Assembly (NCBI RefSeq): GCF_000271665.2
Contig: NZ_CP010978.1
Span: forward strand, 3,502,501 to 3,566,500
Source of the DNA: Pelosinus fermentans JBW45
GTDB taxonomy: Bacteria > Bacillota > Negativicutes > DSM-13327
Length of the DNA stretch: 64,000 bases
Reading direction: 5' to 3'
The position numbers and the translations under genes were made by a program. The notes beneath the pieces are model-generated. The model made no database searches and was not told where the DNA came from. It worked only from the letters and a program-made list of their open reading frames with translations. Below are positions 30,773 through 62,016 of this stretch, piece after piece. The number at the start of each line of letters is the position of its first letter. Within the stretch, counting starts at the first letter, position 1.

Positions 30773-33592
30773 CTATTTATTTCTAACAGGAAGTGTACTT
30801 AGAAAATAGCAGGTTTCAGAATCAGGCACCTCTACCCTCAGACTGATTGCAGCATAATCTACGATACTTTTTAATTGCTGAAAATCTGTCTGTCTCTCGC
30901 TTTTAATCTGTTCACTCCAATCCGGAGGCTGCAATGCTTCACCAGCATGAATACGGTCAAACATGCAGGCAGCATGCAAATAAATACGGACAATGGCATC
31001 TTGTGATATTTTTCCATTGAAAAAGTAATGTTCAATTTTTTCAACTAACTCTTCACAACAAGCTTTGACTTGATCTACCGATAATGTCTTTACAAATTTA
31101 TTAAGTTGTCCAGCAACTAATGAATATGCCTCACCCTTTGCATATTCATCTAGACTTATCTGATTTTCTTCTTCTATTAAGTCCAACTTTAGCAAGGCAC
31201 AGATACGATTAATGCCATCTTGTGAAAATAATTCACTGACATGAATAAAAGGTATCGCTTCTAACCTTGGATCAATACTGCCAATAGCAATTCGCAGATT
31301 CTCTCCAACCTCTGCAGCCATCCCTTGTATGTCACTCATGGCCCCCGCCGTAATAAAGTTCATATTGTGAGTTTCCGGAATATTGTCAAGCAATATTTCT
31401 TTAATTTTTTTGGCTACTCCTTCACCGCTAGAGCAAGTAACTAAAATAATTCCTTTACCGTCTTTGCCATCAACTTGAGACTGTCTTTTCTGCCTTAAGG
31501 TCAAAGTATATTCATCATATGAGGTATAAATATTAGATACTGCCTGCTCTAGATTATCATCGGTTGTTAATACTCTCCTTCCCGCTTCCAAGACCAATGC
31601 AGTAGTAACATTGGGAATAATTCTTAGGGGAACACGAGTCGCTTTGGCAAGCATATTCTCCATTGTAACTAAGAAACCCATATCCACCAGTATAATAACT
31701 CCACGACCTTCATTGGCCTTTAATACAACCTCTTGTAATTCTTCCACCGTTTTTGCATTACTTTTATTTAAGGGAATATCATAGGATTTCACGTGATCTG
31801 TACCTAATAAATTATTGGCTACTTCCGCCATATTTTGCGCAGTTCCCCGCCCATGAGCCACAATAATCAAACCGATTCTGGATGTGGCGATATCATCAGA
31901 GCCATGAATTAAAAACATGGCAATAAAACCAATCTCATCAGGAGACATCGTGATACCGAGCTTTCTTGTTAAAACAGCAGCATTATCCTGTACTATGCTA
32001 TATGCCTGCCCATGCTCTGCTTTGATGGCTTTAAGATTGGGATTATAAACGACGCGCCCTGATACAACCCGTTCCTTAAATTGCTGCAAGTGCAGTGCTA
32101 AGGCGACTAATGTCTTTCTTCCATATTTCCGATTCATCTTACCTGCCGCATCATTTAAAAGCAAATTTGCAGCTTCCCAAAAATTTTGTTGAATAATACT
32201 GATTGGCATATCGGAATGTTCAGGCTTGAAAAATGCCTGGACAACTGATTCAAAATATTTTTCTAAATCTTTTCCAACCTGATGTTCAACATCTTCATCC
32301 GACATTTGCATCTGCCGATGACTGGCAATTTTCTTATCAATAAAACTGTAAAGGTCAATGGGCAAATCATAATTATTGGATAAGTTTTGAGTTAAAGGCT
32401 GCCCTCCAGGTTCAACAGCAAGACCATCCTTAAAGAGTTTATTAATGGAAGCATCAATCACCTCTTGATGCCTGACCATGGAAAATATCCTTTGTGGTAT
32501 CACATTCGTATCAATGGTTAGCTTATCCACTGCTGACGCCAAATAAGATAAATAGCTTCTTGCACAACATAACTGCAAATCATTGCGCAATTCACCAATA
32601 TTAGCTGGACAATTATAATAAGTAAAGGTACGTAAGGCTTCCCCTGAAATCCAGATTGGCAAATCTAAACGTATGGCCTCTTGTTTTACAAAAAGAACAA
32701 TTAAAGCAATTCTTTCTTTTACGGGTCTTTCGCTAATTCTAGGCAAGGTAATTTGTACTGGTATACGACGCCGAAATGTCATCAACAATGAACTGGAAAT
32801 GTCCTCAGAAGTTGCACAGATCAGCATTACTTGCGCTTTTCGCTCTTCTCGACTCTCACCAAGCCTCCGATAGATTCCTTTGTCCACTAATGTAAAGAGT
32901 AGTTCCTGCCCGGCTGGAGGAAGCCTATGTATCTCATCCAAAAATAGGATGCCTCCACTTGCTCGATCCACCAGCCCCTCGTGTTCTTCATTAGCACCTG
33001 TAAAAGCACCTTTGACATACCCAAAGAGTTGGGAAAGCAGCAGTTGTGAATTATCGGCATAATCAGCACAACTAAAGGTAACAAAAGGAACCTTTTCATT
33101 CTCCTGCCCTCTTTGAGCCCATATTTGAGCTGCATACCGCCACATTGCTTCTGCCATTAAGCTTTTGCCGACACCACTTTCACCGCAAATCAAAGTATGC
33201 AGACCATTAGGCGGATATACTACAGCAGCTTTCGCCAGCTCAATTTGAGCCTTGATACTGCCTTTACTCCCAATGATATTTGAAAAAGGAATATCATGGT
33301 CAGCATCATTATTCTTATTTTCTGAATTTTTTAGAGGTGAGGCTTGCGCTTTAGCCTGATTTTTTCCATTCCTAATGGAAACGTACATGACTGGTCGTGT
33401 ACCATTTTTTTCAACATAGCCTAATTTACATAATTTATTAAGATCTGCTGAGGCATCGCTGCGATGAATTTCTAGCTCCGCAGCGACGGCAGCAGCACTT
33501 ACACCTGCTGATTTGTCCTTTTCGCTACCTTCTTTTGTGATACGTTCCACATATTCCAGCACCCTATCCATTCTAGCAGCCATTACTTTCAC
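30773..33592 (-). CDS. LevR-type sigma-54 activator with PTS regulation domains
   Basis: A 939-residue transcription activator. Order: N-terminal winged helix (about 10-75); sigma-54-interacting AAA+ domain (about 103-340) with Walker A GESGVGKS (137-144), the GAFTGA loop (195-200) and Walker B GGILFLDE (213-220); a PRD around 450-560; an EIIA-Man-like domain with the phospho-histidine in IIVAHGRGTAQ; an EIIB-like segment starting GIILVTCSSGEG; and a C-terminal PRD. PTS components phosphorylate such histidines to set activity. It lies at the 3' end of the PTS operon, whose sigma-54 promoter is at 39206-39222. Confidence 0.92.
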   Translation of the reverse strand: MKVMAARMDRVLEYVERITKEGSEKDKSAGVSAAAVAAELEIHRSDASADLNKLCKLGYVEKNGTRPVMYVSIRNGKNQAKAQASPLKNSENKNNDADHDIPFSNIIGSKGSIKAQIELAKAAVVYPPNGLHTLICGESGVGKSLMAEAMWRYAAQIWAQRGQENEKVPFVTFSCADYADNSQLLLSQLFGYVKGAFTGANEEHEGLVDRASGGILFLDEIHRLPPAGQELLFTLVDKGIYRRLGESREERKAQVMLICATSEDISSSLLMTFRRRIPVQITLPRISERPVKERIALIVLFVKQEAIRLDLPIWISGEALRTFTYYNCPANIGELRNDLQLCCARSYLSYLASAVDKLTIDTNVIPQRIFSMVRHQEVIDASINKLFKDGLAVEPGGQPLTQNLSNNYDLPIDLYSFIDKKIASHRQMQMSDEDVEHQVGKDLEKYFESVVQAFFKPEHSDMPISIIQQNFWEAANLLLNDAAGKMNRKYGRKTLVALALHLQQFKERVVSGRVVYNPNLKAIKAEHGQAYSIVQDNAAVLTRKLGITMSPDEIGFIAMFLIHGSDDIATSRIGLIIVAHGRGTAQNMAEVANNLLGTDHVKSYDIPLNKSNAKTVEELQEVVLKANEGRGVIILVDMGFLVTMENMLAKATRVPLRIIPNVTTALVLEAGRRVLTTDDNLEQAVSNIYTSYDEYTLTLRQKRQSQVDGKDGKGIILVTCSSGEGVAKKIKEILLDNIPETHNMNFITAGAMSDIQGMAAEVGENLRIAIGSIDPRLEAIPFIHVSELFSQDGINRICALLKLDLIEEENQISLDEYAKGEAYSLVAGQLNKFVKTLSVDQVKACCEELVEKIEHYFFNGKISQDAIVRIYLHAACMFDRIHAGEALQPPDWSEQIKSERQTDFQQLKSIVDYAAISLRVEVPDSETCYFLSTLPVRNK

Positions 33593-33684
33593 TCCTTACC
33601 TAAAAGACGCAAATTACGACACTGCTCTTTTTCCTTTGGCCCAGATGATCGATCTCTTTGCAATTTCTCTTCTAATACTATAAT

Positions 33685-33730
33685 AATGGTTGCCAACAAT
33701 CAATGCTAACATCAACCATTGGCAACCATT
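33685..33730. terminator. Hairpin between PTS operon and its regulator
   Basis: AATGGTTGCCAA and TTGGCAACCATT (12-bp perfect arms) flank 22 bases, 13 bases after the last PTS-operon gene. T tract poor (ATTATTATAG), so it may attenuate rather than fully stop transcription. Confidence 0.55.
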
Positions 33731-33742
33731 CATACGTGCAGC

Positions 33743-34798
33743 CTATGCCCCAACCAAAGGCACTCCATACTCATGAGCAATGTCCTTTAATTCCGCAAGT
33801 AATTTGTTAGGAATTTCAATTCCTTTTACTAAGAGACTTTGTTCTAAAATCTGCTCTCGTTCTCCCGGCAAATATATTTCACCAACACCAGCAGCTTTTT
33901 CGACAGCCTTGATTTCCTCACAAAATTTTTCAGTACGTTCATAATAGTCGGTCATGCTGATAAACCCATCGATTTTTATCACAATAATAAGATGTCCAAC
34001 GTCAGCCTGATTATGTGTACCGCTATAGGATGCAACTTCTTGGCCAAAAGCAGCTCCTGTCAGTACGCCGCTTAAATGATCAACAGCAAGTGCTAATGCG
34101 TAGCCTTTAGGTCCAGCCATTGGCAAAATCATCCCTAGCAGTGCTTCTTCGGCATTCGTGGTCGGACGCCCTTCTTTATCCAATGCCCAGCCTTCAGGAA
34201 TCGATAGCCCCTGTTTTGCAGCCGTAATAATTTTTCCTCTTGCAACAATACTGGTGGCTAAATCAATTATGACTGGATTTTTCTCTAACCGGGGAAACCC
34301 TATAGCAATAGGATTTGTACCCAGATAAGCTTCCTTGCCGCCCCAAGGGGGAATTGCCGATAACGCATTTGTGAAAACAATGGCAAGGTAATTCCGCTTA
34401 GCTGCCAAATCGCAATAAAATCCTGCCGTTCCAAAATGATTGCTTCCTCTGACGCCTACAGCACACAAGCCAAAGCTGTCTGCTGCTTTTATTGCCGCTT
34501 CCATCGCCTTGACCGCAACCACCGAGCCCAGCCCATTATCACCGTCCACGGCAAGTAGTGCAGGCCAAAGTTTGTTGATGGTAATGTCGGGTTGAGAATT
34601 TATCGATCCATCCTTTATTCTCATAAGATATCGAGGGAAGCGGCTGATCCCGTGTGTTCCAACACCCCACAAATCAGCCTTTAAAAGATTGTCAGCAACA
34701 ATTTCACTGTCTGCAATAGGCACACCAGCTTTCACCAGTACCTGTACAACAAATTGATGCAGTGAACTAACAGAAAATATGTTTTGCTCGCTGCTCAT
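33743..34798 (-). CDS. Malate/L-lactate dehydrogenase family oxidoreductase (Ldh2/YlbC type)
   Basis: A 351-residue NAD(P)-dependent oxidoreductase of the Ldh2/MDH2 family, unlike Rossmann-type lactate dehydrogenases. Signatures: ADLWGVGTHGISRFPRYL near residues 42-59 with the catalytic histidine, GSNHFGTAGFYC, the nucleotide-site SAIPPWGGKEAYLGTNPI and MAGPKGYALALAVD. Relatives reduce 2-keto acids including diketogulonate, ureidoglycolate and piperideine carboxylate. As the last structural gene of the PTS operon, it probably interconverts a 2-keto and a 2-hydroxy intermediate of the imported sugar derivative. Confidence 0.85.
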   Translation of the reverse strand: MSSEQNIFSVSSLHQFVVQVLVKAGVPIADSEIVADNLLKADLWGVGTHGISRFPRYLMRIKDGSINSQPDITINKLWPALLAVDGDNGLGSVVAVKAMEAAIKAADSFGLCAVGVRGSNHFGTAGFYCDLAAKRNYLAIVFTNALSAIPPWGGKEAYLGTNPIAIGFPRLEKNPVIIDLATSIVARGKIITAAKQGLSIPEGWALDKEGRPTTNAEEALLGMILPMAGPKGYALALAVDHLSGVLTGAAFGQEVASYSGTHNQADVGHLIIVIKIDGFISMTDYYERTEKFCEEIKAVEKAAGVGEIYLPGEREQILEQSLLVKGIEIPNKLLAELKDIAHEYGVPLVGA

Positions 34799-34849
34799 AC
34801 AATAATCTCCCCTTAACTCTACTCAATTATGAATCCGCAAGGTAGTAGT

Positions 34850-35680
34850 TTATTTAATAATGCCTAATGCCCCGCCAATCAATGCAAAAGCAAAAAGGCA
34901 TAAGAGTACGTTAATAACACGATACCCCTTCATAATTGCTCGCCAGCTGACAATAGTTAGGGCTAAAGGCAATGCTTTGGGCACAATCTGATCAAATAAT
35001 TCTTTAAAGACAATTTTCTTACCCGCTACCACCGTTTGCAAAGCAACATCAACGGTTATAAACTTACAAACCATGATTCCCAATACAAATAGACCCATGA
35101 TGGAGAAGAAAGTTGTTAATTTTTTAAATAATCCGCCTTCCAGTATGGTTGTTACTGCAGTTGTACCCAGTTGATAACCTTTACGGATGCTTAAGCGAGT
35201 AATCGTGTAATCATACCCCAGCATACCGATTGCAAAAACCAATGGTCCCAAAAAGCTGCCAGTAGATGCCCACCCAAGGCAGATACCTAGTAATACGGGC
35301 TTATAGAGTGCCCCTGATATTGTATCGCCAATTCCCGCCAGAGGTCCCATCAAAGAACTTTTTAAATCAATAATCGTTTCTTCTGAGATATCCTCCCCTT
35401 TGGCTTTTTGCTCTTCCAGTGCGATAGTTATGCCATGAATAACGGCTCCCCAGCGAGGTTCCGTATTGAAAAACATCATATGCCTTTTTAAGCCAGCAAT
35501 TACTTCCTCTGGTTTATCAGGATATAATTTTTTCATGATTGGACCGATCATAGATGCAAAGCCTCCAGCCTGCATTCTTTGATAGTTATAGGATAAATGA
35601 CTCATTAACCACCAGCGCAATGTAGCCATTTCAATATCTTTTTGGGTTAAACTGACTCCTGTCTCTACTTTCTCTGCCAT
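34850..35680 (-). CDS. PTS mannose-family EIID
   Basis: A 276-residue membrane subunit of a mannose-class permease. The family begins with RWWLMSHLSYNYQRMQAGGF and contains MMFFNTEPRWGAVIHGITIALEEQ and LMGPLAGIGDTISGALYKPVLLG, all visible. The C-terminal half holds membrane segments. It shares one base with the EIIC stop and forms the translocation unit with EIIC. Confidence 0.93.
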   Translation of the reverse strand: MAEKVETGVSLTQKDIEMATLRWWLMSHLSYNYQRMQAGGFASMIGPIMKKLYPDKPEEVIAGLKRHMMFFNTEPRWGAVIHGITIALEEQKAKGEDISEETIIDLKSSLMGPLAGIGDTISGALYKPVLLGICLGWASTGSFLGPLVFAIGMLGYDYTITRLSIRKGYQLGTTAVTTILEGGLFKKLTTFFSIMGLFVLGIMVCKFITVDVALQTVVAGKKIVFKELFDQIVPKALPLALTIVSWRAIMKGYRVINVLLCLFAFALIGGALGIIK

Positions 35681-36441
35681 TATATTTCATCCTCCTCTCT
35701 CGCATTAACGACTACTTCTTTTGGTTGCAATGAAATGTAAATATACCCCATAGCAGCACCAATAAATGCCCCAAATAATAAATTATTCATACCCATATAA
35801 GCACTTACTGCAAAGCCCAGGCCGAAAAACACCAGTAAATCTTTACGAGCCATATATTTCAACAACATGGCAACCCCTACAGCCGGCAGTACTTTACCAA
35901 CGGTGTTGAATCCAGCGATCCCCCAGGCTGGCACTGCAGCCAATAATCCGTCAATAACAGTTGGTCCATAAAAAGCCGCCAAAAAGGCAGGAACTCCTCT
36001 TACCAGTATTACGACAGCCTGAGAAGGTATCGCCTGTATAAGCATAATACCTCGAACATCGCCTTTTTCTGCATACTTATCCTGTATAGAAGGCAGCATA
36101 GAATTGATGGACATAAATAAAATCCAAGCATAATTACCAATAACTCCAATAGAAACTGCCACTACAACTGCCTGCTCCGTACTCATATTACTTTGTATGG
36201 CTACTGCCGTACCCAATAATCCTGCTGAATAAAGATCCGAGGGGTTGGCCCCCCCAGTACTGTTCCAACCTAAAAAGGCTACATTGATTGCGGCTCCGAT
36301 AATCAATCCTTCAACTGGTTTCCCATAGATCAGTCCTACCCAGAACCCTGCCATCAGCGGTTCTCTAATTAACCACCACCCCAAAGGGTTTGATGAAGAT
36401 TGCGCCCAAGCCAGCAATCCTACAAAAACAGCTTGAATCAT
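35680..36441 (-). CDS. PTS mannose-family EIIC
   Basis: A 253-residue polytopic permease subunit. Features include QSSSNPLGWWLIREPLMAGFWVGLIYGKPVEGLIIGAAINVAFLGW at the N-terminus and repeated alanine/glycine-rich helices. It transports the sugar in concert with EIID while EIIB phosphorylates it. It sits between EIIB and EIID in the operon order A-B-C-D. Confidence 0.92.
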   Translation of the reverse strand: MIQAVFVGLLAWAQSSSNPLGWWLIREPLMAGFWVGLIYGKPVEGLIIGAAINVAFLGWNSTGGANPSDLYSAGLLGTAVAIQSNMSTEQAVVVAVSIGVIGNYAWILFMSINSMLPSIQDKYAEKGDVRGIMLIQAIPSQAVVILVRGVPAFLAAFYGPTVIDGLLAAVPAWGIAGFNTVGKVLPAVGVAMLLKYMARKDLLVFFGLGFAVSAYMGMNNLLFGAFIGAAMGYIYISLQPKEVVVNAREEDEI

Positions 36442-36465
36442 AATTTTTCCTCCTTATTTACGACT

Positions 36466-36957
36466 TTAAAAACTTACGCTTTCCATTACTTTTTCGTATT
36501 CCATCGGCTTGTCTTCAGGAGTCGCCTGGAAAAATACATTTACGCCTCCGCTGCTCATCTCCGTTAGCATAGCAGCATCCTCTGGATTTAATGTCATATT
36601 CAAATAAACTGCTTTTCTCCCCGGTCCTGCACCCAGTCCGCCGATTTGCAGTTGTTCAATAGGAAAGCCTTTTTTCCAAACTTCAAGTGTGGTGTGAACA
36701 TCTTTAAATAAAACCAATGCATTCCCTTCGCCCAGCTGATTTTTGTTCCATGCTGCTATAAACGTGTCAATACCCACTACACTGCATTTCACGTCAGCCG
36801 GTGTAGCCATTTTATAAATATTACTCATCACAGGGTCCTTCGCCAACGTATTATTGACAACAATGATCTTAGTGGCTTGAATTGATTTTAGCCACTTCGC
36901 CACTACTTGTCCATGAATCAGGCGAAAGTCGATTCTAATTAAAGAAAGTTTAGCCAT
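36466..36957 (-). CDS. PTS mannose-family EIIB
   Basis: A 163-residue cytoplasmic phosphocarrier. The active-site histidine is in RIDFRLIHGQVVAKW (about His15 from this start). I choose the ATG at 36957, which has GGAAGG 9 bases upstream; an earlier ATG three codons before abuts the SD. It passes phosphate from EIIA to the incoming sugar. The fold and length are typical of the sorbose/fructose/mannose class. Confidence 0.92.
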   Translation of the reverse strand: MAKLSLIRIDFRLIHGQVVAKWLKSIQATKIIVVNNTLAKDPVMSNIYKMATPADVKCSVVGIDTFIAAWNKNQLGEGNALVLFKDVHTTLEVWKKGFPIEQLQIGGLGAGPGRKAVYLNMTLNPEDAAMLTEMSSGGVNVFFQATPEDKPMEYEKVMESVSF

Positions 36958-37018
36958 ATATTTCATCCTTCCTAACGGGTTTTATTTTTTTACAAATGGA
37001 ATGCTTCGATTATTGATC

Positions 37019-37456
37019 TCACAAACTATCCAATTCCTGCACTTCAACCAGGATGTTTTGGCATCCATCGCGTCCTGCCTGAATCACGACCTTTGCTAAC
37101 TCTTCCCCTCGCAGCCCCGTCCGGGCAGTTACGGCTTCAATAACCATACCAAGACTTAAGCCAGCAACCGCACTCACATTTCTAGTGGTTGAAATAGCTG
37201 CTGAAACATTAGCCGGAGTACCACCAAATAAATCGCTAATCAGCAAAGATCCCTCTGCCATGGACTCTAATACCCGATTAATCTCAGCCATAAAATCAGC
37301 CGGTTCCATGCCTGGCATCAGAGACAATGCTCTTACACTTTCCATTGGTCCCATGATCATTTCAGCACTTTTAACTAATTCTTCGCCAAATTTTCCATGA
37401 GTCACAATAACGATACCCGGGATACGTTCTTCCAATTCGTTATTGGAATCTGACAC
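37019..37456 (-). CDS. PTS mannose-family EIIA
   Basis: A 145-residue free-standing EIIA of the mannose class. The phosphorylated histidine is in IVIVTHGKFGEELVKS (His20), and LISDLFGGTPANVSAA is the family signature. It is separate from EIIB, unlike E. coli ManX. EIIA status probably also feeds back on the LevR-type activator through its PRD/EIIA domains. Confidence 0.92.
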   Translation of the reverse strand: MSDSNNELEERIPGIVIVTHGKFGEELVKSAEMIMGPMESVRALSLMPGMEPADFMAEINRVLESMAEGSLLISDLFGGTPANVSAAISTTRNVSAVAGLSLGMVIEAVTARTGLRGEELAKVVIQAGRDGCQNILVEVQELDSL

Positions 37457-37485
37457 TATAATCGCCTCCTTATCTTACAATTTGC

Positions 37486-38142
37486 TTACTTACCTTGTTG
37501 ACGTGCCTTTTGAATTGCCTCAACAAACTCTCTGGCAGCTAGTGTAACTTTGTTATAGTCACCATCTTTTTTATGAGCTTTCGTAACGTAACTGCCTACG
37601 CCGATCGCATCGCAGCCTGCATGAATCCACTCATGTACATTTTGCGGCGTTGCTCCACCAGTAGGGACAATTGATGCTTGGGGAATCGGTGCTTTGATGG
37701 TTTTTACATACTGAACTCCTAGGAAATCTGCAGGGAATAGCTTCACCATATCAGCGCCAGCTTCCAGAGTTTCCATCACGTCTTTAGGAGTCATCGCACC
37801 AACGATGGAAATAGCCTGATAGCGATTGCTTACTTTAACCATATCAACATTCAAATGAGGGCTAACCAAAAGCTCAGCTCCAGCTAGTATAGCCGCTCTT
37901 GCTGTTTCCGCATCTAAAATAGTTCCCGCGCCGATAACGACTTCACCATTTTTATACGTTTGGGATAAAGATTCAATAATTTTTAATGCTCCAGGCACAC
38001 TCATCGTAACTTCCACTGCTCCAACCCCGCCTTTAATGCAGGCTTCAGCAATTTTATGAGCTTCCTCTGTATTATCACTGCGAATAATAACTACAATACC
38101 ACCATCAATTATTTTACGTAAATTTTCAAACTTCTTACTCAT
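37486..38142 (-). CDS. KDPG/KHG-type aldolase of the PTS operon
   Basis: A 218-residue Eda-family class I aldolase. Conserved elements: GVGAVEVTMSVPGAL with the catalytic glutamate, VVIGAGTILDAETA, the Schiff-base lysine in DMVKLFPADFLG, and VPTGGATPQN for phosphate. It should split a 2-keto-3-deoxy-6-phospho acid derived from the PTS substrate to pyruvate plus a triose phosphate. The operon lacks an obvious dehydratase or ammonia lyase that would make such an intermediate. Confidence 0.9.
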   Translation of the reverse strand: MSKKFENLRKIIDGGIVVIIRSDNTEEAHKIAEACIKGGVGAVEVTMSVPGALKIIESLSQTYKNGEVVIGAGTILDAETARAAILAGAELLVSPHLNVDMVKVSNRYQAISIVGAMTPKDVMETLEAGADMVKLFPADFLGVQYVKTIKAPIPQASIVPTGGATPQNVHEWIHAGCDAIGVGSYVTKAHKKDGDYNKVTLAAREFVEAIQKARQQGK

Positions 38143-38167
38143 CGTTAATTCCTCCTAATTTTTTATA

Positions 38168-39127
38168 TTATGGTTTGACAACTGAATATTTAGGTTCAGA
38201 GCCGGATAAAACTCGTACTACTTCTTCTGCTGCCATGACGCCAGCACCCACAATTGCTTCATTCGTATACGCACCCGCATGAGATGTAAAAACTACGTTT
38301 TTTAGTTCCATCAAAGGAGATTCTTTTGGCGGTTCCTGAGCAAACACATCCAAAGCAGCTCCGGCAATTAATCCCTGAGTTAGTGCCTTATACAAATCAT
38401 CTTCGACAATTAGTTCTCCTCTAGCCGTATTAATAATATAGGAGGTTTTTTTCATCTTGCGAAGCCGCTCTATATTAACCATACCAGCAGTCTGTGCCAT
38501 TGCAGGTGCATGCAGGGAGACAAAATCCGCCTTTGCAAATACTTCATCTAGCGGCAAATAGGTTACACCATAATTGTCAATAAATTCTTGTCTAGGGTAC
38601 ACATCATAGGCAAGAATTTTCATACCAAAACCATAAGCACGTTTGGCTACTTCCCCACCGATATTACCCATTCCAATGATGCCCAGAACTTTTCCTCCCA
38701 GCTCAACACCAGTATGACGATACCAGCCTCCATTTCGTATGGAAAGATCCATCTGGGGAATTTGGCGAGCTACTGCCATGATCAACCCTATTGCCAAATC
38801 AGCTACTGACTTACTGTTGGCACCTGGGGTAATAGTAACCGCCACGCCATGTTCTTTAGCAGCATCCACATTGATCGTGTTGTATCCCACGCCTTGTTTC
38901 GCAATGACCTTAAGTGTCGGAGCCCCTGCAGCAATTACCGCTGCTGTGACTTTTTCACTTCCCGCAATCATGCCCTCGACTCCCTTAATCATCTCCAGGA
39001 GCTCGTTCTCTGTTAATGCACGATCATGAGGGTTTAATATCAGTTCATAGCCTTGTGCATTCAAAATTCTCATAGCCTCTAGTGAGCGAGAACGCTCTCT
39101 TGATCCTATCAGGACTTTTTTCTTCAT
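38168..39127 (-). CDS. D-2-hydroxyacid dehydrogenase (SerA-like)
   Basis: A 319-residue NAD-dependent D-isomer 2-hydroxyacid dehydrogenase. The Rossmann motif is LGIIGMGNIGGEVAKRA (about 150-166). Catalytic residues are the Arg of NTARGELI, Glu of FAQEPP and His of TSHAGAYTNEA. There is no ACT domain, so it is not a feedback-regulated serine-pathway enzyme. It is first gene of the PTS operon. Together with the Ldh2-type enzyme at the far end, it makes two redox steps in one pathway. Confidence 0.88.
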   Translation of the reverse strand: MKKKVLIGSRERSRSLEAMRILNAQGYELILNPHDRALTENELLEMIKGVEGMIAGSEKVTAAVIAAGAPTLKVIAKQGVGYNTINVDAAKEHGVAVTITPGANSKSVADLAIGLIMAVARQIPQMDLSIRNGGWYRHTGVELGGKVLGIIGMGNIGGEVAKRAYGFGMKILAYDVYPRQEFIDNYGVTYLPLDEVFAKADFVSLHAPAMAQTAGMVNIERLRKMKKTSYIINTARGELIVEDDLYKALTQGLIAGAALDVFAQEPPKESPLMELKNVVFTSHAGAYTNEAIVGAGVMAAEEVVRVLSGSEPKYSVVKP

Positions 39128-39205
39128 GCAAGCAACTCCTTTTTTAGAAATATCTAATCTCTTGAGAAGTATATTTCCCTACAATTAGAATTCAGCTATA
39201 TTATC

Positions 39206-39222
39206 ATGCAATATTCATGCCA
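39206..39222 (-). promoter_or_regulatory. Sigma-54 (RpoN) promoter of the PTS operon
   Basis: The minus strand reads TGGCATGAATATTGCAT, with GG and GC separated by exactly 10 bases, matching TGGCAC-N5-TTGC with one change. It is about 80 bases upstream of the first PTS-operon start and fits the LevR-type activator encoded at the operon's end. Confidence 0.82.
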
Positions 39223-39266
39223 CTACACATCATCCCGGATTCCTCTCCCAACTTTACATCGTTCAC

Positions 39267-39324
39267 TACAGAAAATTAGAAAGTAGTGTAGCACTGCCAC
39301 TACACTACTTTCTAATTTTCTGTA
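39267..39324. promoter_or_regulatory. 58-bp perfect palindrome, candidate activator site
   Basis: Arms of 25 bases (inner ends GTAGTGTAG / CTACACTAC) flank CACTGCCA. It lies 45-100 bases upstream of the sigma-54 promoter, where an upstream activating sequence is expected, between divergent genes where a terminator is not needed. Its length exceeds that of usual activator sites. Confidence 0.6.
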
Positions 39325-39458
39325 TTCGGTTCATTACATATCACCATTAACAACCATTGCCAGTATATTTTTCACTTTAACGGAGGATACTCCCCTATAG
39401 TAGTACTCTTCAAATTTTTAAATATAAAGAAATATTTTACATTCTAGGAGTTGACAAA

Positions 39459-40301
39459 ATGAACAAGGCAATATTGATGCTTTTTTCCATGGTATTACTA
39501 TTTTCGGTCAGTGCCTGTGGTACTTTAAACGCTCCTCAGGAAAAACCAGAGGTAGGAACACCGCCGCCGATTGCCAGCCAGCCATTACCTGAACAAGAAT
39601 CTTTGCAGCTTATTAACGAATTGAAACAGTTTAATGGCCAAATCGGTCTATATGCACGAAACCTTAAAACAAATCAAACGCTTCAATTTAATCAAAATAT
39701 GATCTTTCCCACAGCATCCACCCATAAATTAGTCGTTGCAATTGCCATCTATAAATATCTATATCCAAATGCTTCAGTTAGCGAAAAGCAACACTATGAT
39801 GAGAATATAAAACAAATGATGATCGTTAGCGATAATCCTGCCTTTTATGAACTTTTGGATATTATCGAAGCAAAGCAACCGGATGCACTTACTCGTGTGC
39901 TAACCGACCTAAATCTTGTCAATACTAGAATCCATAGCCGTGAGGCTTTCAAGGAATATGGATATCACAGTGTTACAACCCCTTATGAAATGTCGCTAGT
40001 TTTTGAAACAATCTATAATGAGACCTATCTTGGAAAAGAATTCTCATCCATTTTAAAAGAAGAGTTGAGCAATACCATCTTTCAAGAAGAAATTCCCAGA
40101 TTCCTGCAAGGCAAAAAAGTGCTGCACAAGGTTGGGGAGCTGCCGGGAGTCCAATGTGATGTAGGTATTATTGACGACGGACAGAATGTGATTTTAATCA
40201 GTCTTTATACTACAACCAAACAGCAGCCGCCTTATGCCAGTAATTTTATTGCTGATATTTCGGCTAAAATTTATAATGCACTACAGTCCTCAAATCCTTA
40301 A
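39459..40301 (+). CDS. Class A beta-lactamase-like serine hydrolase lipoprotein
   Basis: A 280-residue protein with a lipobox (LFSVSAC, Cys20), a proline-rich linker and a beta-lactamase2 domain. Active-site motifs: STHK (Ser87, Lys90) and SDN (124-126). The third motif reads KVG where KTG is usual, and a clear omega-loop ExxLN is not obvious. It may therefore be a weak beta-lactamase or a peptidoglycan-related hydrolase. SD CTAGGAG precedes the ATG. It is divergent from the PTS operon, with no evident functional link. Confidence 0.8.
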   Translation: MNKAILMLFSMVLLFSVSACGTLNAPQEKPEVGTPPPIASQPLPEQESLQLINELKQFNGQIGLYARNLKTNQTLQFNQNMIFPTASTHKLVVAIAIYKYLYPNASVSEKQHYDENIKQMMIVSDNPAFYELLDIIEAKQPDALTRVLTDLNLVNTRIHSREAFKEYGYHSVTTPYEMSLVFETIYNETYLGKEFSSILKEELSNTIFQEEIPRFLQGKKVLHKVGELPGVQCDVGIIDDGQNVILISLYTTTKQQPPYASNFIADISAKIYNALQSSNP

Positions 40302-40353
40302 GATTCACTTTTGGCAACCTAGCAGTATACCTATGGCTAATCTTAAGATTTTT
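40298..40353 (+). terminator. Probable terminator of the beta-lactamase-like gene
   Basis: CTTAAGATT, overlapping the stop codon, pairs with AATCTTAAG across 32 bases, followed by ATTTTT. Confidence 0.45.
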
Positions 40354-40459
40354 AAATTTATTGTAACAGGGATATTGTGGATACATGAAATTTCTCCTTA
40401 CCATAATTTTTTATAATATTTTATTCGTCTATTAACTTTATGTAACCATCGCAATCGCA

Positions 40460-40486
40460 GAAAAAAACACAACCAGCTAGTGGTTG
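40460..40486 (-). terminator. Terminator of the small Lys-rich gene
   Basis: On the minus strand CAACCA and TGGTTG pair over five bases, then TG and seven T. It lies 17 bases after the stop of the 30-residue protein. Confidence 0.75.
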
Positions 40487-40502
40487 CGCTTCATATAGAA
40501 AA

Positions 40503-57450: not shown

Positions 57451-57483
57451 GAAGAAAGGCACTAGCATGTAGTGCCTTTCTTC
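57451..57483. terminator. Bidirectional terminator
   Basis: GAAGAAAGGCACTA and TAGTGCCTTTCTTC pair perfectly around GCATG between convergent genes. Confidence 0.9.
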
Positions 57484-61762: not shown

Positions 61763-61889
61763 TTTATCCGATGACCAAGTCGCTCTAAGACTCCCCTCTC
61801 TCCAAGGGGGAGTTAAGAGCGACTAGGTCCCTGGATAAGTGCGACTAAAGATTCAGGTGGAGTTAAAACTCCATCTGAATCAAGTCTTC
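61763..61889. repeat. 127-bp tandem repeat, unit 1
   Basis: First of two adjacent copies. Contains GACCAAGTCGCTCT paired with AGAGCGACTAGGTC around an ACTCCCC/GGGGAGT inner stem, and a second hairpin with GATTCAGGTGGAGTT and AACTCCATCTGAATC. It starts TTTATCCGATGACC. Confidence 0.85.
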
Positions 61890-62016
61890 TTTATCCGATG
61901 ACCAAGTCGCTCTAAGACTCCCATCTTCTCCAAGCGGGAATAAGAGCGACTAGGTCCCTGAATAAGTGCGACTAAAGATTCAGGTGGAGTTAGAACTCCA
62001 TCTGAATCAAGTCTTC
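61890..62016. repeat. 127-bp tandem repeat, unit 2
   Basis: Second copy, about 90% like unit 1, in exact head-to-tail register; its right end covers the last codons of the UPF0261 gene (stop at 62007). The inner stem is weaker here (ACTCCC...GGGAAT). Confidence 0.85.

Follow-up and report, generated by a model that had tools for sequence, protein, structure and literature searches.

A conserved GTGTNG/CNACAC core in a long inverted repeat upstream of a sigma-54 promoter of Pelosinus fermentans is a candidate LevR-type activator site

The DNA analysed here is a stretch of 64,000 nucleotides from the genome of Pelosinus fermentans JBW45, referred to below as the window. Its minus strand carries a PTS gene cluster (30773-39127) that begins with a dehydrogenase gene and ends with the gene for a LevR-type sigma-54 activator, while a beta-lactamase-like gene lies divergently on the plus strand (Table 1). 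The genes from 39127 to 30773 are presumably transcribed as one unit, and the substrate of the PTS is perhaps a sugar acid. The activator matched PF00158 (sigma-54 interaction AAA+; E 4.2e-39), with GAFTGA present in the translation, as well as PF00874 (PRD), with two stretches, and PF03610 (EIIA-man); neither an EIIB-gat-like domain nor an N-terminal helix-turn-helix gave a Pfam match at E 0.001. Its best NCBIfam match was DagR (NF047795), but the score of 522.5 bits was far under the cut-off of 1400, and identity as the DagR equivalog was rejected. The dehydrogenase was 97% identical to that of a P. fermentans MAG, 92% to that of P. propionicus DSM 13327 and 79% to that of Propionispora sp. 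2/2-37. Upstream of the beta-lactamase-like gene, a block at 39343-39404 was nearly invariant in five Pelosinus genomes and more conserved than its flanks, and is possibly a promoter or operator of that gene.

Table 1. Features of the promoter region and the neighbouring genes, with positions in the window
Feature	Position	Strand	Basis
Inverted repeat, 25-nt perfect arms, 8-nt spacer	39267..39324	.	Repeat search, fold, shuffles
Sigma-54 -24/-12 element TGGCAT-GAATA-TTGCAT	39206..39222	-	Sequence, genome pattern search
Distal core half-site GTGTAG	39300..39305	-	At -83 from -24 box
Proximal core half-site CTACAC	39286..39291	-	At -69 from -24 box
Third GTGTAG, touching -24 box	39223..39228	-	GTGTNG here in 12/13 orthologous promoters
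D-isomer 2-hydroxyacid dehydrogenase family, first gene of operon	38168..39127	-	Domain match
KDPG/KHG aldolase family	37486..38142	-	Domain match
PTS EIIA, mannose family	37019..37456	-	Domain match
PTS EIIB, sorbose/mannose family	36466..36966	-	Domain match
PTS EIIC, mannose family	35680..36441	-	Domain match
PTS EIID, mannose family	34850..35680	-	Domain match
Malate/L-lactate dehydrogenase family (Ldh_2)	33743..34798	-	Domain match
LevR-type sigma-54 activator, 939 aa, proposed binder of the 39267-39324 site	30773..33592	-	Sigma54_activat, PRD, EIIA-man
Beta-lactamase-like gene, divergent neighbour	39459..40301	+	Domain match

Between the two divergent genes (38168-39127, minus; 39459-40301, plus) lies an inverted repeat, the two arms of which (39267-39291 and 39300-39324; 25 nt each) are 100% complementary and enclose the 8-nt spacer CACTGCCA. 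The first-pass annotation had described a 58-bp perfect palindrome with mismatch-free arms of 25 bases between divergent genes, 45-100 bases upstream of TGGCAT-N5-TTGCAT. Both the arms and the setting agreed with this description, and the place measured from the first base of the element was -102 to -44; owing to the spacer, however, the structure is an inverted repeat and not a continuous palindrome. Folded as DNA, the repeat gave -24.1 kcal/mol (z -10.1), which was equalled by 0 of 200 shuffles, and the longest arms in three Markov-shuffled windows were 13, 12 and 9 nt, placing the repeat far beyond chance. Its arms were the longest perfect arms within the window; other perfect arms of 24, 21 and 19 nt were found in the same window. 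In a 464-kb sample of the genome (20 stretches of 20 kb plus the window, with genes called mechanically), we found 47 inverted repeats with arms of at least 13 nt, distributed between co-directional genes (25), between convergent genes (17), inside an ORF (1) and between divergent genes (4). Within this sample, the 39267-39324 repeat was the only one between divergent genes with arms of at least 16 nt, and its placement is more unusual than its arm length; its rank as the longest is partly circular, because the window was included for containing the repeat. The earlier remark that such a length is unusual for a protein site applies to the outer arms. Across the 464 kb, however, 13 repeats with arms of 18-25 nt were counted, so that such lengths are not rare here.

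The pattern TGGCAYN5TTGCW matched the genome at 51 sites and its reversed control at 1, so that most of these matches are likely to be real promoters. Relatives of the promoter at 39206-39222 were collected at two levels. The region matched in five of eight Pelosinus genomes, the own genome included, and gave no match in the other three (G003, G005 and G006; genome labels of this kind are ours). Within the class, the dehydrogenase was matched in 93 of 300 genomes (E 1e-60), and we examined 26 of the 30 best dehydrogenase loci, leaving out the four weakest. A sigma-54 match at most 600 bases upstream was present at 12 of the 26 loci and absent at 14, 12 of which had less than 60% identity to the query. 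Another paralog stretch of G048 (L138) likewise lacked a sigma-54 match. Two promoters were added to the 12, namely, that of G034b (C32) from the dehydrogenase search and that of G307 from a pattern search. In the scaffold of G004, the P. fermentans MAG, the palindrome is interrupted by a run of N (L011:1480-1500), probably an assembly break that it caused itself; an apparent insertion at this place proved to be the run of N. G004 was dropped from the pair, arm and motif counts, leaving 13 readable orthologous promoters, of which the four from Pelosinus are close relatives and not independent.

The inner part of the repeat was conserved in these promoters. In P. fermentans JBW45, the distal GTGTAG and the proximal CTACAC form an inverted pair centred at -73 from the -24 box, and an inverted GTGTNG/CNACAC pair with its centre 53-73 bases upstream of the -24 box was present in 12 of the 13 readable promoters; for any one of them, at most 19 of 2000 shuffles yielded such a pair. 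The exception, G013, has no inverted pair and carries overlapping direct GTGTAG copies only. The pair centres fell into three groups spaced roughly one helical turn apart: -73, -73, -71.5 and -72 in Pelosinus with -71.5 in G048, -62.5 in Propionispora, and -53 to -56 in six promoters. This spacing agrees with a protein that acts on the promoter and would not be expected of a terminator. The half-sites did not keep one order: GTGTNG leads in Pelosinus, Propionispora and G048, and CNACAC in the six others, with 7-12 bp between the hexamers in either order. In addition, GTGTNG touched the -24 box in 12 of the 13 promoters, including that of G307, for which the search pattern already held this motif. 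Elsewhere the combination was scarce: among the 51 sigma-54 sites of the own genome, the pair occurred at one, the 39206-39222 element itself, and GTGTNG touched the -24 box at two, one of them inside an ORF. Another GTGTAG-bearing sigma-54 promoter in G034 had no inverted pair.

An ortholog of the LevR-type activator was found in all 13 genomes searched (the own genome and 12 chosen relatives, whose proteins were 53-97% identical to it). The element was kept with the operon where the upstream gene differs, this gene being beta-lactamase-like in Pelosinus and another ORF of 434 aa in Propionispora. The 39267-39324 site thus lies upstream of a -24/-12 promoter, and its dyad is conserved in promoters with the cognate activator, as in an upstream activating sequence (UAS). 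The proposal that the repeat is an activator site gained support from this conserved core, its fixed place relative to the -24 box, its co-occurrence with a LevR-type regulator and its independence from the neighbouring gene, and we consider GTGTNG/CNACAC a candidate UAS of the LevR-type activator.

A UAS motif for CelR/LevR was reportedly published by Nie et al. 2016. According to an excerpt of PMC10864463, LevR of Bacillus subtilis binds a UAS at -125, and in B. thuringiensis three UAS were predicted, mutation of two of which lowered cel promoter activity. By this family precedent, we infer that the activator at 30773-33592 binds the core and activates the promoter. The likeness to the LevR/CelR-type UAS, as far as the excerpt describes it, consists in the position upstream of a -24/-12 promoter, which in both cases serves a PTS operon that has a PRD-type activator gene of its own; the difference is that the arms around the candidate GTGTAG/CTACAC core extend here far beyond the length of a dyad site. 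The reconstructed UAS motifs of Clostridiales sigma-54 regulons are also inverted repeats, mostly near the activator gene, but most lie 100-250 bp upstream of the promoter, as against 44-102 here, and the set covers Clostridiales and not Negativicutes. Among the literature matches listed, judged by title and the start of the abstract in a collection leaving most subscription journals outside its coverage, none concerned this element or motif.

The arms may serve termination instead. The repeat could be an insulating (bidirectional) terminator, an RNA hairpin that stops stray transcripts from reaching a silent sigma-54 promoter, with the core overlapping it for economy of space. Four relatives (G017, G034b, G187 and G307) have, at the same place and behind a co-directional ORF, a hairpin followed by a T-run, and the hairpins of the own genome, Propionispora, G017, G307 and G187 form stable RNA folds. 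Of the 47 long repeats sampled from the genome, 42 are found where terminators would be placed, between genes that are co-directional or convergent. G048 has a separate hairpin upstream together with a short core dyad (9 nt), but this division was not constant, since in G017 arms of 16 nt occur together with a second hairpin, seen by eye, at a greater distance upstream. In Pelosinus, the neighbouring genes are divergent, the full stem is followed by TTCGGTTC and GTGAACGA, which are not U-tracts, and a terminator scan at 39267-39324 detected an inner match of 5 pairs only. A GC-rich stem with a U-run, as in intrinsic terminators, was thus lacking in Pelosinus but present, by sequence, in the four relatives, and the earlier judgement that a terminator role is unlikely stands for the former and not for the latter. 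A terminator would also leave unexplained the conserved core and its place relative to the -24 box. We regard termination as an unlikely explanation of the element.

Outside the core, the arms varied greatly among the promoters. Perfect arm lengths were 25, 19, 19 and 21 nt in Pelosinus, 26 nt in Propionispora, and 17, 16, 16, 16, 11, 9 and 7 nt (the last read from the sequence) in others, with one promoter having none. Propionispora retains the core TAGTGTAGT, and its outer arms differ in sequence but are still perfect (26 nt). Within the four Pelosinus, both sides were changed at 2 of 25 pairs (3 cells) and the inner 19 pairs were paired in all four, while the outer six pairs decay through changes in the distal arm. 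In the core it is therefore the sequence that is conserved, in the arms mainly the complementarity.

A comparison of paired substitutions across strains had been proposed as a check of the hairpin. Such substitutions were present, but they did not discriminate, as ordinary repeats of the window show them too. Over 25 pairs and three relatives, the 39267-39324 repeat gave 4 paired, 1 G-T and 7 unpaired cells; when counting was confined to the inner 75% of pairs, 4 paired cells and no unpaired one remained. The inner 75% of seven other window repeats, pooled, gave 9 paired, 1 G-T and 15 unpaired cells. Among these, repeat 59050 (three relatives) had a pairing pattern just like that of 39267-39324, as did repeat 24133 with G001, the sole relative counted, the copies in G002 and G004 being irregular. 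Of 500 shuffles, 51 reached the number of double-changed pairs observed at 39267-39324 and 125 the number of pair types, while 10 each reached the number of paired cells, the number of double-changed cells and the covariation score; for the paired changes, this shuffle control was weak. The value of paired changes as proof of a hairpin function is therefore weakened, and a hairpin function does not have to follow from the match between the arms.

Long arms were uncommon at other sigma-54 promoters, with arms of at least 14 nt at -110 to -40 found at 3 of the 51 own-genome sites. The second case (123918-123976; L203:1620-1678) has perfect 20-nt arms and lies between divergent genes, upstream of an alanine dehydrogenase gene and opposite an ACT-PAS-AAA+ activator gene. 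In five Pelosinus, its TGTTCC/GGAACA core was invariant and 4 of the 20 pairs were changed on both sides; 1 of 500 shuffles gave as many double-changed pairs. The third case (456603-456634; L213:1585-1616), with 14-nt arms at -99 to -67, lies downstream of a histidine-kinase-like gene and is separate from an upstream terminator-like hairpin; its outer arm symmetry was gone in both matching relatives. Near seven of the genome's eight other PRD-type activator genes, ten sigma-54 sites at distances of up to about 11 kb had no arm above 10 nt, indicating that the family does not require long arms. Two near-identical imperfect hairpins were observed in the window at 61778-61824 and 61905-61951 (AGTCGCTCTAAGACTCCC...), and similar letters (AGAGCGACT) were seen upstream of another sigma-54 site (L069); these hairpins are possibly a small dispersed repeat.

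The hairpin might alternatively function as DNA, either as a cruciform or as a hinge that moves the activator towards the promoter; in both cases, the activator would bind the core. The replacement of the outer arm sequence between Pelosinus and Propionispora with complementarity kept would be in line with this, as would the double-changed pairs at the unrelated alanine dehydrogenase promoter. Nevertheless, some orthologs have short arms (7, 9 or 11 nt) or lack a dyad altogether, and long arms are confined to three own-genome sigma-54 sites, one of which lost its outer symmetry in relatives. The excerpt of PMC8899819 describes a comparable case, the PBMO hairpin of the BmoR promoter, as an inverted repeat upstream of a sigma-54 promoter and a proposed activator site; its stem is imperfect and lies 193 bp upstream, and its deletion left induction similar to wild type, which calls for caution about hairpin function. 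A functional DNA hairpin thus appears distinctly improbable. A broader idea, which we hold to be quite unlikely, is that Negativicutes possess a class of sigma-54 enhancers built as hairpins, in which the core would be activator-specific and the arms sequence-free but selected for complementarity, the extruded cruciform or hairpin would take part in activation or promoter silencing, and the arrangement would have arisen independently for PRD-type and ACT-PAS-type activators.

The repeat lies 134 bases upstream of the beta-lactamase-like start codon and its minus strand folds well as RNA, so a 5' leader hairpin or attenuator of this plus-strand gene was considered. We rejected it as very improbable: orthologous operons retain the core without the beta-lactamase-like gene, and GTGTAG/CTACAC was absent from the 450 bases upstream of the seven paralogs examined among the nine other beta-lactamase-like genes listed for the genus; two of these seven have an unrelated repeat with 16-nt arms 256-301 bases upstream. 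No Rfam family reached its gathering score in 38500-40500, where three sub-threshold matches (microRNA, plastid) were obtained. Of the earlier suggestion of a regulatory RNA hairpin or a cruciform, the leader RNA is thereby set aside, and the cruciform is kept as a rival. A mobile palindromic element (MITE/REP-like), for which the TA at both ends could, by sequence, be a target duplication, is hardly credible, as the repeat is single-copy (one extra match, at 797318, with 3 mismatches and on one strand only, against one for the reversed control, hence no second genome match beyond chance), is found at orthologous places in five Pelosinus genomes, in one of which an assembly gap falls within it, and has no match in the plasmid collection, which also speaks against a plasmid origin.

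The explanation that we favour, with moderate confidence, is an activator-binding core under selection, the arms of which were extended by template switching and came into use as a terminator in some relatives. When PTS signals allow, the activator would bind the GTGTAG...CTACAC pair centred near -73 from the -24 box, perhaps helped by the GTGTAG touching that box, and, once bound, would open the sigma-54 promoter from which the dehydrogenase, aldolase, PTS and LevR-type genes are presumably transcribed. The dyad core, being under selection, may seed a hairpin, and template switching during replication may lengthen the arms and restore their perfect match, so that the long arms are probably an extension of the activator site. 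In G017, G034b, G187 and G307, the longer hairpin would double as the terminator of the co-directional upstream gene.

Excerpts of PMC8794818 and PMC8604942 describe template switching during replication as leaving footprints in the form of inverted loops and multiple compensatory changes. Two loops of this kind were found: that of the alanine dehydrogenase repeat is ATGC in two species and the reverse complement, GCAT, in G004, and that of a terminator-like repeat in the window (57451-57483) has the letters GCATG in P. fermentans JBW45 and CATGC in G002, the latter read by eye. As both loops are short and partly self-complementary, this hint at template switching is suggestive only; no loop inversion was seen at the 39267-39324 repeat itself. 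The template-switch hairpins in the excerpt of PMC8794818 share the multiple compensatory changes and inverted loops, but are described for RNA genes, with a role in the maintenance of short stems called 'less clear', whereas here the mechanism is tentatively extended to regulatory DNA.

These observations provide a test case for paired substitutions in regulatory palindromes, which are usually taken as proof of a selected hairpin. The ordinary repeats and inverted loops of these genomes point to replication as a process that may by itself maintain the match between arms. For the Negativicutes, GTGTNG/CNACAC, together with the copy at the -24 box, represents a candidate binding motif for the LevR-type regulator of an uncharacterised PTS operon.
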